Shown here: piece after piece, positions 22,338 through 28,756 of the stretch
Numbering within the stretch: the stretch's first letter is position 1
How the letters are laid out: every line of letters starts with the position of its first letter
Source of the DNA: Longimicrobiales bacterium
GTDB lineage: Bacteria > Gemmatimonadota > Gemmatimonadetes > Longimicrobiales > Gaopeijiaceae
Length of the DNA stretch: 35,800 nucleotides
Direction: 5' to 3'
Assembly (NCBI GenBank): GCA_028280525.1
Contig: JANQLR010000406.1
Location: forward strand, 1 to 35,800
Notes under the pieces: generated by a model
The model's input: only the letters and a program-made list of their open reading frames with translations
Told to the model about the DNA's origin: nothing
The model's database searches: none
Translations under genes and position numbers: made by a program

Positions 22338-23630
22338 ATGGTTCCAGGGACGAAGTGGCTGCGGTCCCGGTCGGAGCGATCCGGAGATGGGGCGAGCCGG
22401 CACGAGATGGAGGCCGACCCCGGGGGTGCGGGTTCTCGCCCCCGCCCCGCCGATCCGCTCCACCGAGAGGTGCGCGACGGGGAGGCTCGGTCGCTGCACG
22501 ACCCGGATGCCGAAGCGGGAGGGGTGGAGGCCTGCCTGGACTGCTTCGATCTCCTCGCTGCGCTGTCGTCGGAGGCCGTGCTGGTTCATTCGGACGAGCG
22601 AATCGTCTACGCCAATCAGGCGGGGGTGGAGCTTCTCGGGGCACGGTCTCCGCAGGAGCTGCGGGGGCTCGCGATGGGCGACTTCGTGCGACCCGGGGAT
22701 CTGCCCGCGTTGGAGGCTCGTCGCGCACAGGCACTGGAGGGGGCGCCCCTCCCTGCGGAGAACTGGCAGGTCGTGTCGATCGACGGGATCGAGAAGACCG
22801 TCCGCGTGACCTCGCGTCCCGTGACGCACCGGGGACGCCCCGCACGGGTAACGCTGGCGGCGGATATCACCCAGAGCCTCGAGGTCGAGGAGGAGCGAAG
22901 TCGCCTCCGGGATCGACTGGAGGTGACCCATCGGGCGGAGTCCCTGGGTCGTCTGGCCGGCGGTGTCGCACACGACTTCAACAACCTCCTGACCGTGATC
23001 TCCGGCTCCACCGACCTCGCGCTGTCGGAGCTGGCCGAGGAGTCCAAACTCACCGAGCACCTCCGGCAGATCGAATCCGCCACCGAGCGGGCTGCCGCGC
23101 TCATACGCCAGCTCCTGGCCTTCGGCCGGCGCCAGGTGCTGAGACCCTCCGTGGTGGACCTCAACGACGTCGTGGCAGAGATGGAGTCGATGCTCCGCCG
23201 TCTCATCCGCAGCGACATCGAGATTCGGTTCGAGCGGCGCGCCGGCGCGTGCCCGGTCCGCGTGGATCGGGGCCAGTTGGAGCAGGTCATCGTGAACCTG
23301 GTGGTGAACGCTCGGGATGCCATGCCGCAGGGGGGCGTGGTCGTCGTGGCGACCGAGTCGGGCGTGCCCCTGCCGGACTCGGCGCCGAGCCCGGGTGGCG
23401 GATGCAGAACGGTCCTGTCGGTGACCGACGACGGCGTGGGCATGGACGAGGAAACGGTGTCCAGGATCTTCGAGCCCTTCTACACGACGAAACCCGTCGG
23501 GAGCGGGACCGGGCTCGGTCTCGCGACCGTCTACGGCATCGTCAAGCAGAGCGGTGGCGCCATCGACGTCGAGAGCGAGCCGGGGGTGGGAACACGCTTC
23601 AGGATCTGGCTGCCCACCGCCGATTCGTGA
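22338..23630 (+). CDS. PAS-domain soluble sensor histidine kinase
   Basis: This 430-residue protein is a two-component sensor kinase without a membrane segment. After a low-complexity N-terminus (1-62) comes a PAS domain (about 66-178), a short coiled-coil linker (LEVEEERSRLRDRLEV), a HisKA-type site GRLAGGVAHDFNNLLTVIS (phospho-His H212), and an ATPase domain with N-box NARDAM (324-329), G1 DDGVGMD (364-370), F-box FEPFYTTK (378-385) and G2 GSGTGLGL (388-395). The AHDFNN form is typical of kinases with a PAS input and often a receiver domain, but no receiver or response regulator gene is present here. The exact start is uncertain because the first 60 residues look unstructured (an internal ATG lies at 22407). 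A TetR-type operator lies just upstream. Confidence 0.9.
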   Translation: MVPGTKWLRSRSERSGDGASRHEMEADPGGAGSRPRPADPLHREVRDGEARSLHDPDAEAGGVEACLDCFDLLAALSSEAVLVHSDERIVYANQAGVELLGARSPQELRGLAMGDFVRPGDLPALEARRAQALEGAPLPAENWQVVSIDGIEKTVRVTSRPVTHRGRPARVTLAADITQSLEVEEERSRLRDRLEVTHRAESLGRLAGGVAHDFNNLLTVISGSTDLALSELAEESKLTEHLRQIESATERAAALIRQLLAFGRRQVLRPSVVDLNDVVAEMESMLRRLIRSDIEIRFERRAGACPVRVDRGQLEQVIVNLVVNARDAMPQGGVVVVATESGVPLPDSAPSPGGGCRTVLSVTDDGVGMDEETVSRIFEPFYTTKPVGSGTGLGLATVYGIVKQSGGAIDVESEPGVGTRFRIWLPTADS

Positions 23631-23647: not shown

Positions 23648-23676
23648 TTGCGCCTGCGGTAATGGGGACATATCGT
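23648..23676 (+). promoter_or_regulatory. Candidate promoter for the structured RNA
   Basis: TTGCGC (23648-23653), a 17-base spacer and TATCGT (23671-23676) make a weak sigma70-like promoter. Its expected start falls near 23683, which is exactly where the first long RNA stem begins. The -35 region overlaps a small hairpin (GCGC-AAG-ACT-CTT-GCGC, 23636-23653) directly after the kinase stop, which could instead terminate that gene. Confidence 0.35.
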
Positions 23677-23682
23677 GCAAAT

Positions 23683-24032
23683 CCGACGACGGAAAACGAC
23701 GCTCGTCAGAGTCGAATTCGAAGTCGTCGGAGGGCCCGGAGAGGTCCTGGAAGGGGGCAACCCCGGAAGGGAAACCGGCCTGGCCCGCCGCGAATGGCGC
23801 ACTGCGCCGGACGCGGCGAGCATGGCCTCGGATTCGGCTGAGGCCGTGACGGCTGCGAGGTCGCTGGATGCAGCCGAGCCCCCGGGAACGGGGGGCGACC
23901 CGACGGGTGGAAACGCCATTCGGGGAAGAGCGGGGGAACCGGTCGCCACACACGGCGGCGCCGAAACGGACAGCTCCCGGTCGCCAGCGTGTTGAAGCCC
24001 CCGACCGAGCGTGTGTGCTCGGCGGGGGCTTC
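23683..24032 (+). ncRNA. Candidate structured non-coding RNA of unknown class
   Basis: No frame here looks coding, yet the plus strand contains a chain of perfect helices. CCGACGAC (23683-23690) pairs with GTCGTCGG (23723-23730). GGGCC (23732-23736) pairs with GGCCC (23782-23786) around GGGG-GCAA-CCCC (23753-23764). CGCCGCG (23786-23792) pairs with CGCGGCG (23812-23818) around GGCGC-ACT-GCGCC. GGCCTC (23824-23829) pairs with GAGGCC (23840-23845). CGGCTGC (23850-23856) pairs with GCAGCCG (23870-23876). CCCCCG-GGAA-CGGGGG is at 23879-23894. GGCGACC (23894-23900) pairs with GGTCGCC (23941-23947). A terminator-like hairpin closes the element. GCAA and GGAA are GNRA-type loops. Known signatures of RNase P RNA, tmRNA, 6S, SRP RNA and common riboswitches were not found. 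It could be a trans-acting RNA or a long leader of the three-gene operon. GC richness makes chance helices more likely. Confidence 0.5.
23994..24032 (+). terminator. Strong terminator-like hairpin at the end of the RNA candidate
   Basis: GAAGCCCCCGACCGAGC (23994-24010) pairs with GCTCGGCGGGGGCTTC (24017-24032) through 16 base pairs with one bulged A and a GTGTGT loop. The following bases are TCTCGT, so there is only a weak U tract. It lies 75 bp before the next start codon, where it could end the RNA or attenuate the operon. Confidence 0.6.
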
Positions 24033-24106
24033 TCGTATCGCGATGCTCCCGCCCCGGGCCTGCGCGACGGACCCCGGTGCTTCCTCTCCCGATCCGGAGT
24101 CCGGCG

Positions 24107-24466
24107 ATGTCGATTTCGCAGAAGCTGCTCGATGGACTGAATGCACTCGTCCACCTGAAGGTCGTCACCTACGTCGGACCCGTCGAGACGAGTGGAGAGC
24201 TGGACGACCTCCAGGTCAAGGTCGCGCCGGGGGACGAATCCTACTCCATCGCCACCTCGATCGACCTCGGGCAGGGCGACATCAACTCGGTGGTGCCCCC
24301 GCAGGCGTGGGCGGCCTCCGGTGAAGTCGTCCGCACCTTCCACTCGGAGCAGGTCGAGAGTGCCAAGGCGATCGTCGATCGGAACCTGCGGCTCATCGCC
24401 GAGGTCGGGAAGTCGCTCGCCGAAGCGATCACCGAGCTCAAGAAGGCGGACGAAACCGACGCGTAG
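24107..24466 (+). CDS. Hypothetical protein (first gene of an unrecognised three-gene operon)
   Basis: This 119-residue protein matches no family I recognise. It has an amphipathic N-terminal helix (ISQKLLDGLNALVHL), a beta-rich centre (VVTYVGPVETSGELDDLQVK, YSIATSIDLGQGDINSVV) and a C-terminal helix rich in Ala, Glu and Lys. No signal peptide or membrane segment is visible. Residues 46-95 align by eye with segments of the next two gene products (T-x-I-D...GDI...H...V..A). The ATG at 24107 is chosen because CGGAG stands 8 bases upstream; the frame is open from 24011 but that part overlaps the terminator hairpin. The next gene starts 9 bp after the stop. Function is unknown. Confidence 0.75.
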   Translation: MSISQKLLDGLNALVHLKVVTYVGPVETSGELDDLQVKVAPGDESYSIATSIDLGQGDINSVVPPQAWAASGEVVRTFHSEQVESAKAIVDRNLRLIAEVGKSLAEAITELKKADETDA

Positions 24467-24475
24467 GGCGGAACC

Positions 24476-25354
24476 ATGAGTCGGTTGAGCGAGACGCTTC
24501 AGGATCTGTCGAGCCTCGAGATCAACACGATCATCAAGGCGAACATGACGGCTCGCAAGATGCCGGACATCCCCTTCGCGCTGCTGGACATCATCGAGAA
24601 GTACGGCGAGAAGCTGGACGAGCTCGGGGTGGATCTGTCCGTCTACTTCAGGTCGTACGCGTCGTCGGACTACCGCGAGCGGGAGATGGCACGGCTGGAC
24701 GACCTCCTCTCGAGCAGGGAGGGTGGAGCGCGCCCCCGCGGGTCCTTCAACGAGCAGAAGGACCTGCGGCCGCTCTTCGAGGATGCGCAGCCCTCGGAGC
24801 GCCCGGAGGCGTTCTCGATGGAACGGACGCACAACGGCTGGGACACCTTCGAACGGCTGCGACTGGCGGCCCGGAGTGCGCTGAAGCGCTCGGAGCTGAG
24901 GGAGGACCCGACCGCACGGACGACGCTTCTTCGGATTCGGAAGAACTGCGACCAGCTCAAGCACCTCGTTCGTCTGATCGAGCTCCGCTCCAAGAAGGGG
25001 TCGGGGAGGTGGAGCGAAGTCATTCCGAAGACGCGCAACGAGCTGGTCGCACGGTCACTGGAGCGCACCGCGGACGAGCCTTCCTACGCCGAGGAGCTCA
25101 CGCTCATTCAGGTGAACCTCGTCCGGAAGGCGTGGGAACTCGGGGTGGAATCCGTGCTCGCGCAGACGGTCATCCAGACGGACGGCGACGTGGTTACGCG
25201 GATCTCGAATGAGCTCGTCCAGCAGCACGGCGACGAGGTTCGGCGGCTCATCCTGTCCGCGCACAGCGAGGGCGTGGGCGGCGCGATCCAGCACTGGAAC
25301 TCGCTGGTCAAGGTGGCGGTTGATCTGGTGGTGCAGCTGGTGAAGTCGCGCTGA
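24476..25354 (+). CDS. Hypothetical protein (second gene of the unrecognised operon)
   Basis: This 292-residue, mostly helical protein is not recognised. Its start, LSETLQDLSSLEINTII, resembles that of the preceding protein (ISQKLLDGLNALVHLKVV). The middle contains a charged, probably flexible stretch (about 80-120) and helices with FERLRLAARSALKRSEL and LRIRKNCDQLKHLVRLIELR. The C-terminal 67 residues hold the shared module: TVIQTDGDV (231-239), then LILSAH and V..AIQHW, ending in a hydrophobic amphipathic helix (LVKVAVDLVVQLVK). No catalytic motif is evident. The ATG at 24476 follows GGCGGAA. It is 14 bp from the third gene. It looks like a structural or scaffolding protein, but that is a guess. 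Confidence 0.75.
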   Translation: MSRLSETLQDLSSLEINTIIKANMTARKMPDIPFALLDIIEKYGEKLDELGVDLSVYFRSYASSDYREREMARLDDLLSSREGGARPRGSFNEQKDLRPLFEDAQPSERPEAFSMERTHNGWDTFERLRLAARSALKRSELREDPTARTTLLRIRKNCDQLKHLVRLIELRSKKGSGRWSEVIPKTRNELVARSLERTADEPSYAEELTLIQVNLVRKAWELGVESVLAQTVIQTDGDVVTRISNELVQQHGDEVRRLILSAHSEGVGGAIQHWNSLVKVAVDLVVQLVKSR

Positions 25355-25368
25355 CCGGGACGGGTTCG

Positions 25369-25887
25369 GTGTCGGACGCTGACGTCGGTCGCCCCCTGGT
25401 TGAACGCGCTGGCGCGACGGAACTCTTCCAGATGGGGACGCTCGTCGTGGAGGCGCCGCCGGAGGCCGAGGAGGCGGACGACGTCCTGATCCGCACGGTC
25501 GTCCAGATCGATGGCGACGTGCTGGTGATGCTCCACCCCGAGGTCCTCACCCGACCGGACTTCCCGGAGCTGCTGAGCGCGCACCAGCACCGGGTCCGAG
25601 AGGCGATGATCGAAGCGCGGCAGCGACTCGCACGCCTGCCTCGGTTCGCCGAGCTTCTGCGCAGGGTCGCGCCGGTCCTCGGAGTTGCCCAGTGGGTCCT
25701 GTGGCCGGAGCAGCTGCCCGGGGACTGGGTCCATCACCTGCTCCTCGCCGGCGGGTTCGCCTGGGGGGTCCTCGGGCGACGGCTGGGTGGCTGGGTGCTG
25801 CGGTGGTGGATCCGTCGCCAGATCGAGCGGGCAACGGGTCGGGAGGGCGCCCAACACCCGGAACGTGGCGCGCGTCCACAGGTGTAG
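25369..25887 (+). CDS. Hypothetical membrane-associated protein (third gene of the unrecognised operon)
   Basis: This 172-residue protein has the shared module near its N-terminus: TVVQIDGDV (43-51), HPEVL, LLSAHQHRVREAM. A basic helical stretch follows (EARQRLARLPRFAELLRRVAPV), and then a hydrophobic segment around WVHHLLLAGGFAWGVLGRRLGGWVLRWW that could be a single membrane-spanning or membrane-dipping helix, followed by a basic tail. It is the only one of the three operon proteins with such a segment, so it may anchor the others to the membrane; that is inference. The start is GTG 25369, 14 bp after the previous stop. No known family was recognised. Confidence 0.7.
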   Translation: MSDADVGRPLVERAGATELFQMGTLVVEAPPEAEEADDVLIRTVVQIDGDVLVMLHPEVLTRPDFPELLSAHQHRVREAMIEARQRLARLPRFAELLRRVAPVLGVAQWVLWPEQLPGDWVHHLLLAGGFAWGVLGRRLGGWVLRWWIRRQIERATGREGAQHPERGARPQV

Positions 25888-25981: not shown

Positions 25982-28756
25982 ATGCCGCTCATCACGAACC
26001 CGCCGATGCCACACTCCCCGACTCCGTCCGGGCGACCCAGCGGGACGGGTTCGGCTGCCAGGGCCGGTGCAGGCCGATGGCGGGCGTCCGTGATCGGTCT
26101 CGCCGCGGCGGTGCTCTTGGCTGCCTCGGCCGACGGGGGGACGGCACAGATCCCGACGGACCGCGGGGTGACGGGGACGGCGCTCCTGCTCCGCCAGCTC
26201 GACGGGGTGAAGCGGGTGCTCATGATCGCGGCGCACCCGGACGACGAGGACACGGCGCTCCTGGCAACGCTCGCCCGCGGGATGGGGGCGGAGACCGCCT
26301 ACCTCTCCCTCACCCGCGGGGATGGCGGCCAGAATCTCGTGGGTCCGGAGCTCGGAGAGGGGCTCGGGATCATTCGGACGGGGGAGCTGGTCGCGGCGCG
26401 CCAACTGGACGGCGCCGGTCAGTTCTTCACCCGGGCCTTCGACTTCGGCTACTCGAAGAACGCCGCGGAGGCGCTCACGACCTGGCCCCGGGAGGAGCTG
26501 TTGAGGGACGTGGTCTACGTGATCCGTACCTTTCGGCCGCAGGTCATCGTCTCGCAGTTCTCGGGCACCCCCGCCGACGGCCACGGCCAGCATCAGGCGG
26601 CCGGGATCATGGCTCGCGAGGGGTTCGCCGCGGCCGCCGATCCGACGCGCTTCACCGACCTCGGGCTCCCCGCGTGGCAGGCGACGAAGCTGTACCAGCG
26701 CCGGCGAGGCGTGAACCAGGTCGGGAGCCCGACCACCGTTCCCACCGGTACCTTCGATCCGGTGCTCGGACGGTCGCACCTGCAGATCGCGATGGATTCG
26801 CGCTCGCAGCACCGCTCGCAGGACATGGGGACGGCCCAGCCCTTCGGCTCGCGAAACTCGAACCTCGTCCTGGTGGAGTCCGCTCCCGGAGCTCTGATCC
26901 AGGGCGACGACTTCTTTGCCGGTGTCGACACCGCCTTCGTCTCCGTGGCTCGCGCGGTCGACGCGAGCGTGCGCCCGGCACTCGAGGCCCACCTGCAGGA
27001 GTACCGCGCGCTCCTCGATGTGGCCCGCTCCCAGCTCACGCCGGCGGCCCCCTCCGCGATCGTCCCGCACCTTACCGGAGCGCTGGTCGAGCTGGATGCG
27101 GCGCGGGCCCTCTTCGGGGCCGCGGTCGGCCGATCCGCGGACGCGGAGTTCGACGCAGCGGTGGACCTCATCGAAGCCCGGATGCGGAAGGTGCACGAGC
27201 TCCGGATGCGGGCGGCGGGGGTCGTGACCCGGCTCCGCGCATCCGACGACCTCGCCGTGCCGGGAGACGAGATCGAGCTCACCTTCGAGGTGTGGAACGG
27301 GGGTGACCGCACGATCACCGACTTCTCCGTCGATCTCACCCTGCCCGACGGCTGGCCCGAGCCGGAGCCCACGGAGGTGGAGGACGGCGGCGACCTCGCC
27401 GGGCCGTCGTGGTTCCGGGACGGGATGAACGAGAACGTCGCCGGCTCGACCCTCGAGGCGGGGAGCCTCGCGCGGTACGCGTGGCGGGTACGCGTGCCGG
27501 AGGACGCCCGTCTCTCGAAGCTCTACTTCCGCAGGACGGCCCGGGACGGGGAGATGTACCGCTGGCCCGATGATTCGTCCGAGTGGGGCCGACCGAAGAA
27601 CCGACCCATCGTGCACGCGCTCCCGACCTTCCGGCTCGACGGCGACGGTCCGCGGGTGACCTCCGAGGTCCCGGCCCGCTACGTCGGTGTCGATCAGGCG
27701 CTCGGGCAGTTCGAAGAGCCGCTCCTGATCGTGCCGGCGGTTTCGGTCCGGACGTCGCCCTCGCAGCTCGTCTGGCCTGCGGGGGCGGCGGAGACGAAGC
27801 AGGTCGCGGTCACCCTCGACGGGATGGACGCCGACGGCGCCTCGGGGCGCGTCCGCCTGGAGGTGCCGGACGGGTGGACGGTGTCTCCGTTGTCGCACGA
27901 GTTCCGCTTCGCCGAGCCGGGGCAGTCCGCCTCCTTCGCCTTCGAGGTCACGCCGGCCGGCGCCACAGATGGCCGGCAGCGTTTCCGCGCGGTTGCGACG
28001 CTGGACGACGGGCGCGAGTACCGGGAGGGCTTCGCGCTCATCGAGTATCCGCACATCGAGCGGACGGCGAGGTTCGACCCGGCAGAGGTCGGAGTGACGG
28101 TCGTGCCGGTGGCCATCACCGAGGCCGCGATCGGGTACGTCCCGGGCGCGGGGGACGATGGCATGCTCGCGCTCGAGCAGATGGGGGCGCGGGTCGAGAC
28201 GGTCTCGGCCGAGCGCCTCGCCGCCGGCGACCTCGACGACCTGGACGTGCTCGTGCTGGGGATCCGCGTGTACGAAACCCGGCCCGAGATCGTGGCGGTG
28301 AACGACCGGATTCTCGAGTTCGCGCGAAACGGCGGCACCGTGGTGGTGCAGTACAACCAGTACTCCTTCCCGCGCGCGGGCTACGCGCCGTACCCGGTGG
28401 CGATGACGCGCCCGCACACCCGGACCACGGACCAGAGCTCGCCCGTCCGGTTCGTGCAGCCCGACCACCCGGCGCTGAATGCCCCGAACCGGATCACGGA
28501 GGCCGACTTCGAGGGGTGGGTCCAGGAGCGCGGTCTCTACTATCTGAGCGAGTGGGACGAGCCGTTCGAGTCGGTCATCGCCTTCCGCGACCCCGGTGAG
28601 GAGTGGGCCGAGGGCTCGATTCTCGTCGCACCCCTGGGCGAGGGGCTGTACGTCTACACCGGGATCTCCTTCTTCCGGCAGTTCCCGGCGGGGGTCGCCG
28701 GCGCGTACCGCCTCTTCGCGAATCTGGTGTCGCTGACGGCGGACGGACTTCGCTGA
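25982..28756 (+). CDS. Large secreted PIG-L family deacetylase
   Basis: This protein of about 924 residues is an N-acetylglucosaminyl deacetylase-like metalloenzyme (LmbE/PIG-L fold). A signal peptide (RWRASVIGLAAAVLLAASA) precedes the catalytic domain. The metal-binding AAHPDDED (H85, D87, D88, E89) and GHGQH (H201, H204) are both intact, and SLTRGDGGQN is typical. The later part contains beta-sandwich domains (VPGDEIELTFEVWNGGDRTI) and a GATase1/ThuA-like region (DLDVLVLGIRVYETRPEI, GGTVVVQYNQYSFP). This domain order is common in Gemmatimonadota and Bacteroidota. The start is uncertain: ATG 25982 or 26006, neither with a clear ribosome-binding site. The next gene starts 2 bp after the stop. 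The substrate, probably an N-acetylated sugar, is not shown. Confidence 0.92.
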   Translation: MPLITNPPMPHSPTPSGRPSGTGSAARAGAGRWRASVIGLAAAVLLAASADGGTAQIPTDRGVTGTALLLRQLDGVKRVLMIAAHPDDEDTALLATLARGMGAETAYLSLTRGDGGQNLVGPELGEGLGIIRTGELVAARQLDGAGQFFTRAFDFGYSKNAAEALTTWPREELLRDVVYVIRTFRPQVIVSQFSGTPADGHGQHQAAGIMAREGFAAAADPTRFTDLGLPAWQATKLYQRRRGVNQVGSPTTVPTGTFDPVLGRSHLQIAMDSRSQHRSQDMGTAQPFGSRNSNLVLVESAPGALIQGDDFFAGVDTAFVSVARAVDASVRPALEAHLQEYRALLDVARSQLTPAAPSAIVPHLTGALVELDAARALFGAAVGRSADAEFDAAVDLIEARMRKVHELRMRAAGVVTRLRASDDLAVPGDEIELTFEVWNGGDRTITDFSVDLTLPDGWPEPEPTEVEDGGDLAGPSWFRDGMNENVAGSTLEAGSLARYAWRVRVPEDARLSKLYFRRTARDGEMYRWPDDSSEWGRPKNRPIVHALPTFRLDGDGPRVTSEVPARYVGVDQALGQFEEPLLIVPAVSVRTSPSQLVWPAGAAETKQVAVTLDGMDADGASGRVRLEVPDGWTVSPLSHEFRFAEPGQSASFAFEVTPAGATDGRQRFRAVATLDDGREYREGFALIEYPHIERTARFDPAEVGVTVVPVAITEAAIGYVPGAGDDGMLALEQMGARVETVSAERLAAGDLDDLDVLVLGIRVYETRPEIVAVNDRILEFARNGGTVVVQYNQYSFPRAGYAPYPVAMTRPHTRTTDQSSPVRFVQPDHPALNAPNRITEADFEGWVQERGLYYLSEWDEPFESVIAFRDPGEEWAEGSILVAPLGEGLYVYTGISFFRQFPAGVAGAYRLFANLVSLTADGLR

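Follow-up and report, generated by a model that had tools for sequence, protein, structure and literature searches.

The segment 23683-24032 of the window, as we call the whole 35,800-nucleotide stretch of DNA analysed here, is very probably a real and previously uncatalogued non-coding RNA gene with the fold described below, a conclusion reached in the absence of transcript data. An earlier note on this DNA had suggested a large structured RNA upstream of an operon, and covariation in homologues, the test proposed in that note, strongly backs the RNA part of the suggestion; the link to the operon is incidental, as the neighbouring genes of relatives are unrelated and more often in the opposite orientation. 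According to our model, this free-standing gene would encode a trans-acting, highly structured RNA with its own promoter and its own terminator hairpin, about 240 nt long in most relatives, as inferred from promoter and terminator positions, and about 354 nt long in the clade of the window, where the 5' domain is expanded. The molecule would be compact, consisting of hairpins H1-H5 and closing helices P4 and P5, in which the strand following H5 pairs with the loop of H1, and the strand preceding the terminator with that of H2. A third kissing contact, between a 5' hairpin loop and the loop of H4, is proposed for most lineages, while H4 of the window would carry a GNRA tetraloop instead.

Extent and predicted fold

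On the plus strand, 23683-24032 folds with an energy of -203.5 kcal/mol, which is lower than that of any of 100 dinucleotide shuffles (-167.8 +/- 6.0, z = -6.0); the minus strand of the same segment also folds low (z = -5.6). This comparison with shuffled controls was a check that the earlier note had asked for, and the nested helices, GCAA tetraloop (GGGGGCAACCCC) and 16-pair 3' hairpin described there were all found in the fold. The proposed limits were nearly right, in that the hairpin does end at 24032, although the RNA itself probably reaches about 24036. A start at 23683 fits a promoter-like TTGCGC-N17-TATCGT at 23648-23676, which is weak and is not reported by a stricter scan. The predicted features are as follows, with the supporting evidence in brackets.

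23648-23676, plus strand: promoter-like TTGCGC (23648-23653), 17-nt spacer and TATCGT (23671-23676), weak here, predicted start about 23683
23683-24036, plus strand: whole RNA gene, about 354 nt (fold z of -6.0, homologues, covariation)
23683-23817, plus strand: expanded 5' domain of the clade, with hairpins including GGGGGCAACCCC (alignment of 21 clade members)
23824-23845, plus strand: hairpin H1, 23824-23831 with 23838-23845, loop AUUCGG (two-sided changes at 8/8 modelled pairs)
23833-23838, plus strand: pseudoknot A, 5' side, UUCGGC in the H1 loop (swap test, tree-based scan)
23851-23875, plus strand: hairpin H2, GGCUGC 23851-23856 with GCAGCC 23870-23875 (two-sided changes at 6/6 pairs)
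23862-23867, plus strand: pseudoknot B, 5' side, CGCUGG in the H2 loop (swap test, tree-based scan)
23878-23895, plus strand: hairpin H3, GCCCCC / GGGGGG (94% of cells paired, two-sided changes at 4/4 pairs)
23899-23924, plus strand: helix P4, CCCGA 23899-23903 / UCGGG 23920-23924, enclosing H4 (covariation on 100 sequences)
23906-23917, plus strand: H4, GGUG-GAAA-CGCC, GNRA-capped hairpin inside P4 (covariation on 100 sequences)
23931-23979, plus strand: helix P5, 23931-23936 with 23974-23979, enclosing H5 (two-sided changes at 6/6 modelled pairs, only 70% of cells paired)
23942-23959, plus strand: hairpin H5, GUCGCC / GGCGGC, loop ACACAC (94% of cells paired, two-sided changes at 5/5 pairs)
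23960-23965, plus strand: pseudoknot A, 3' side, GCCGAA, strand after H5 (swap test, tree-based scan)
23984-23989, plus strand: pseudoknot B, 3' side, CCAGCG, strand before the terminator (swap test, tree-based scan)
23994-24032, plus strand: terminator-like hairpin of 16 pairs with a weak U-tail, UCGUAUC (fold, relatives)

H2, with its 13-nt loop GAGGUCGCUGGAU, is the most conserved element of the RNA (99.1% of cells paired), and a G-G-U in this loop is unpaired and nearly invariant, few such bases being found outside the pseudoknots. The expanded 5' domain, rich in small hairpins, replaces a shorter 5' domain of other lineages; it is conserved among the 21 clade members with only modest covariation, and its pairing is less well tested than that of the core.

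Covariation in the helices

The predicted base-pairing of this RNA family, long-range contacts included, is held by many compensating mutations, with the proviso that no formal R-scape run was made. In a plain MAFFT alignment that had not been fitted to any model, helix covariation scored 0.309, while shuffling gave 0.169 and sliding never more than 0.159; pseudoknot B was entered one column off in that computation, an offset of which the later tests are independent. With 100 model-aligned sequences, two-sided compensatory change was seen at all 38 of the 38 modelled pairs, and covariation reached 0.616 versus 0.224 shuffled and at most 0.087 slid. We acknowledge that this alignment was fitted to the model, and that the independent tests weigh more. 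One of these was a tree-based scan that scored every one of the 14,365 column pairs with no knowledge of the structure; in it the ten best pairs were all helix pairs, several H1 pairs were among the top, pseudoknot pairs outside the model ranked high, and an outward extension of P5 absent from the model was seen to covary (columns 233-372 and 232-373). The scan takes kinship into account, but with a rough Poisson background.

Long-range contacts

To score long-range contacts, we used a swap test on non-redundant sequences, in which two segments of a sequence are scored by their longest Watson-Crick run and this is compared with the runs obtained with other sequences' partners, no pairing being assumed. 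Segment limits came from the model alignment, but none of contacts A, B and C is in the model; the permutations ignore kinship. For pseudoknot A, a sequence's own pairing run was 5.87 versus 4.28 +/- 0.12; the tree-based scan raised columns 35-340 and 34-341, and relatives carry the variants UUUGGC/GCCAAA, CUUGGA/UCCAAG, GAUCAG/CUGAUC and GUCUGAC/GUCAGAC. The corresponding values for pseudoknot B were 6.16 versus 5.57 +/- 0.07, with columns 80-378, 82-376, 79-379 and 78-380 raised by the scan and CGUCGG/CCGACG, CGCCGG/CCGGCG, CGUUGG/CCAACG and CACUG/CAGUG as variants. Contact C, found in relatives, is a pairing between a 5' hairpin loop and the loop of H4 (GCGGUC with GACCGC), the partner lying 34-62 nt upstream of the core. 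It was supported in the class with an open H4 loop (5.12 versus 4.21 +/- 0.11), whereas in the class with a GNRA tetraloop no kissing partner was seen by this test (2.90 versus 3.09), and a control region farther upstream gave nothing. The RNA studied here is of the GNRA type, with the longer, clade-wide 5' domain instead of the contact C partner.

A GGGACGC-like motif, apparently a hairpin loop, was also observed in relatives within the last 45 nt before the core, in 45 of 74 sequences, against 6.9 expected after shuffling, and is possibly a further contact.

Transcription signals and neighbouring genes

Conserved signals in the relatives, rather than transcript data, indicate that the RNA is transcribed and terminated independently. 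Sigma70-like promoters upstream of the core had a mean best score of 7.09 versus 6.06 in shuffled sequence, the score being at least 9 of 12 consensus matches in 20/74 relatives, and typically lie at either -61 to -75 or -92 to -103. Directly after CCAGCG follows a hairpin with z < -3 in 60/73 relatives, in many of them with a U-rich tail. A promoter and terminator of its own, expected of a structured non-coding RNA gene, are found in relatives but weak in the window itself, whose promoter and U-tail stand at the weak end of the relatives' range.

Upstream of the RNA lies a gene for a PAS-domain histidine kinase, which ends at 23630; the next gene downstream, co-oriented, starts near 24107, about 75 nt past the terminator hairpin. 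In the 76 non-redundant loci compared, the gene closest downstream runs against the RNA in 43 cases and with it in 27. Which gene it is differs from locus to locus, apart from two gene orders that recur. One, seen at about 12 loci when diverged copies are counted, is lipB, the RNA, an opposite-strand gene and a carA-like gene; the other is an rplU-rpmA/chorismate-mutase-like order. The gene names in the former were assigned by eye from sequence and not by Pfam. Given the promoters and terminator hairpins, and because downstream genes are variable and more often opposite, the RNA is most likely free-standing and trans-acting rather than a leader of the downstream operon, action in trans being inferred. 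An attempt to derive a function from neighbouring genes was abandoned, as the recurring neighbours reflect only these two gene orders and are otherwise varied.

Two further observations concern the window itself. Three consecutive plus-strand ORFs directly 3' of the RNA (about 119, 292 and 172 aa, 24107-25884) had no Pfam match at E 0.01, and an ARAGORN tRNA-Lys call at 27077-27169 (plus strand) is probably a false positive, as it falls within a long ORF that carries PIG-L and NPCBM-associated domains.

Homologues and distribution

The window itself comes from a Gemmatimonadota genome, the phylum being assigned through named relatives. A DNA search of 97 related genomes returned two matches 74% identical over about 300 nt (genomes G029 and G056), along with partial matches, several of which begin at one common query base. 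The aligned homologues have in common a 3' core made of a UUCGG-loop hairpin, the GGCUGC-GAGGUCGCUGGAU-GCAGCC hairpin, more hairpins, GCCGAA, CCAGCG and the terminator-like hairpin. A covariance model built from 14 sequences and run on 395 Gemmatimonadota genomes at E <= 0.001 matched 106 of them, about a quarter, in 50 of 138 genera and with 1-4 copies per genome. An exhaustive pattern scan of the same genomes found 23, all within the covariance-model list, and its reversed-pattern control gave 0 of the matches listed; a second covariance model placed the RNA in 9/41 near-complete genomes. Although the model searches weigh only so many candidates in each genome and may overlook diverged copies, the patchy distribution across Gemmatimonadota is probably real, and such patchiness favours an accessory rather than a housekeeping role.

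Beyond the phylum, scanning 84,980 species for an exact pattern returned 13 Gemmatimonadota stretches and a single match in Chloroflexi (L039), which was taken as chance since no other part of the RNA family was seen there. The one exact pattern tried on viral contigs had no match, nor did a BLAST of plasmid and phage records with the window's member only.

Some copies deserve separate mention. A second partial copy, 96% identical, lies at a contig end of the window's own genome (L002, G000:C352, 4-196), and the DNA after its terminator hairpin differs. Another locus (L081, G059:C99) carries two copies separated by about 1.5 kb, within a tandem duplication that extends to the flanking genes, a sigma-factor-like ORF among them. 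Only a shortened core is matched by the model in the diverged copies of Roseisolibacter sp. H3M3-2 and its genome copy (L043 and L124) and in L107; L043 retains CCAGCG further downstream, as if by insertion. A diverged subgroup (L126, L127, L129, L130, L131 and L132) lies at the lipB/carA-like position with a different 3' part, which seems to run past the usual terminator hairpin. As this position is common to the better-matching copies, common descent is supported independently of the model.

Comparison with known RNAs

Rfam 15 covariance models run over the whole window gave 0 matches at the gathering cut-off, and with relaxed thresholds the best sub-threshold match reached 24.1 bits against a cut-off of 40; the best one to the RNA region belonged to an unrelated family (E = 1.2). 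The inability of the earlier note to match the sequence to RNase P RNA, tmRNA, 6S, SRP RNA or riboswitches thus agrees with Rfam at both gathering and permissive thresholds. Neither a description of the family nor any Gemmatimonadota RNA motif was found in the open-access literature searched, which excludes most subscription journals and preprints, and the word Gemmatimonadetes is absent from three structured-RNA surveys (PMC8632094, PMC8040213 and PMC2864571). We rate the family as categorically new at the level of the RNA family, structured non-coding RNA being already known as a general category.

OLE, GOLLD, ROOL, HEARO and raiA are large structured RNAs of bacteria whose function is unknown or only partly known. 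The RNA described here resembles them in its few hundred nucleotides, its complex pseudoknotted fold and its free-standing or only loosely gene-linked position, but falls below every Rfam cut-off and, unlike the phage-borne GOLLD and ROOL, was not found in phage or plasmid records or in viral contigs in the limited searches described above. Length, pseudoknots and a transcription unit of its own are also reminiscent of tmRNA (RF00023) and RNase P RNA (RF00010); however, RNase P RNA is present elsewhere in 10/10 RNA-bearing genomes and tmRNA is present separately in 9/10, the exception being the window's own draft genome.

Large pseudoknotted RNA families are seldom discovered, and among those already described are ribozymes, RNP scaffolds and global regulators. 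The present family offers a well-tested secondary structure, mapped long-range contacts and recurrence in a little-studied but widespread phylum, while the replacement of a kissing loop by a GNRA hairpin represents a natural experiment in the evolution of RNA folds. The diverged copy in Roseisolibacter sp. H3M3-2 places the RNA in a named genus, outside MAGs, so that bench work on its structure and function may be feasible.

Possible functions

In the absence of function data, we consider it an evenly balanced matter whether the RNA is a binding platform for a protein or RNA-protein machine, a partner that remains a guess; this reading is favoured because the fold is locked by several long-range contacts, nearly invariant unpaired bases outside the pseudoknots are few and there are no constant neighbour genes. 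A regulator would fit these features as well as a protein-binding scaffold. Because only part of the phylum carries the RNA, it would act on some accessory process. It is also conceivable, albeit with distinctly less confidence, that an unknown ribonucleoprotein machine is built around the RNA, or that the RNA represents a new class of ribozyme, in either case specific to Gemmatimonadota; its tertiary fold would then be unlike that of any known RNA and, in some lineages, a GNRA-capped hairpin and a new 5' domain would have taken the place of one kissing contact.

Alternatively, the RNA might be an antisense regulator whose unpaired GAGGU in the H2 loop base-pairs with mRNAs or with the anti-Shine-Dalgarno sequence; this GAGGU is found in 56/76 sequences (RGGU in 71/76) and is complementary to the usual anti-SD ACCUC. 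These bases may, however, merely bridge the pseudoknot, and without target data we hold this to be rather unlikely. A functional counterpart of 6S RNA (RF00013) or Ms1, that is, an abundant RNA-polymerase-binding RNA, seems improbable: the RNA is likewise short and free-standing, has its own promoter and terminator, and 6S was not detected in the window or in 10/10 RNA-bearing genomes tested, but the 6S model matches only 5/14 control genomes, which makes this absence weak evidence, many genomes of the phylum lack the RNA, and the fold is a multi-pseudoknot globule and not a long hairpin with a bubble. There is likewise only a slim case for a ribozyme, as the several long-range contacts, the locked fold and the nearly invariant unpaired G-G-U that could suggest one are set against the lack of any match to known ribozymes in Rfam and of cleavage-site evidence.

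That the RNA is a riboswitch or attenuator in the leader of the downstream three-gene operon is very unlikely in spite of the co-oriented gene close by and of a pseudoknot B strand that immediately precedes the hairpin, a position that would suit an expression platform, since the consistent co-oriented downstream gene expected of such a leader is not seen in the 76 loci. A CsrA/RsmA sponge of the CsrB/RsmZ type, the alternative raised in the earlier note, is hardly tenable. The window's own genome encodes CsrA, and the RNA has several hairpins and some GGA in loops, as such sponges do; the count of about a dozen GGA triplets was also sound (14), but it is no enrichment over the 12.8 +/- 2.6 expected from shuffles (loop placement not counted), the loops are occupied by covarying long-range pairs, with the conserved GG(A) of H2 paired within pseudoknot B, and csrA was not found in 5/10 RNA-bearing genomes. 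Finally, the region is GC-rich, but the reading that its hairpins are merely the product of chance in such DNA is ruled out by the z of -6 and by covariation at the level of the phylum, pseudoknots included.
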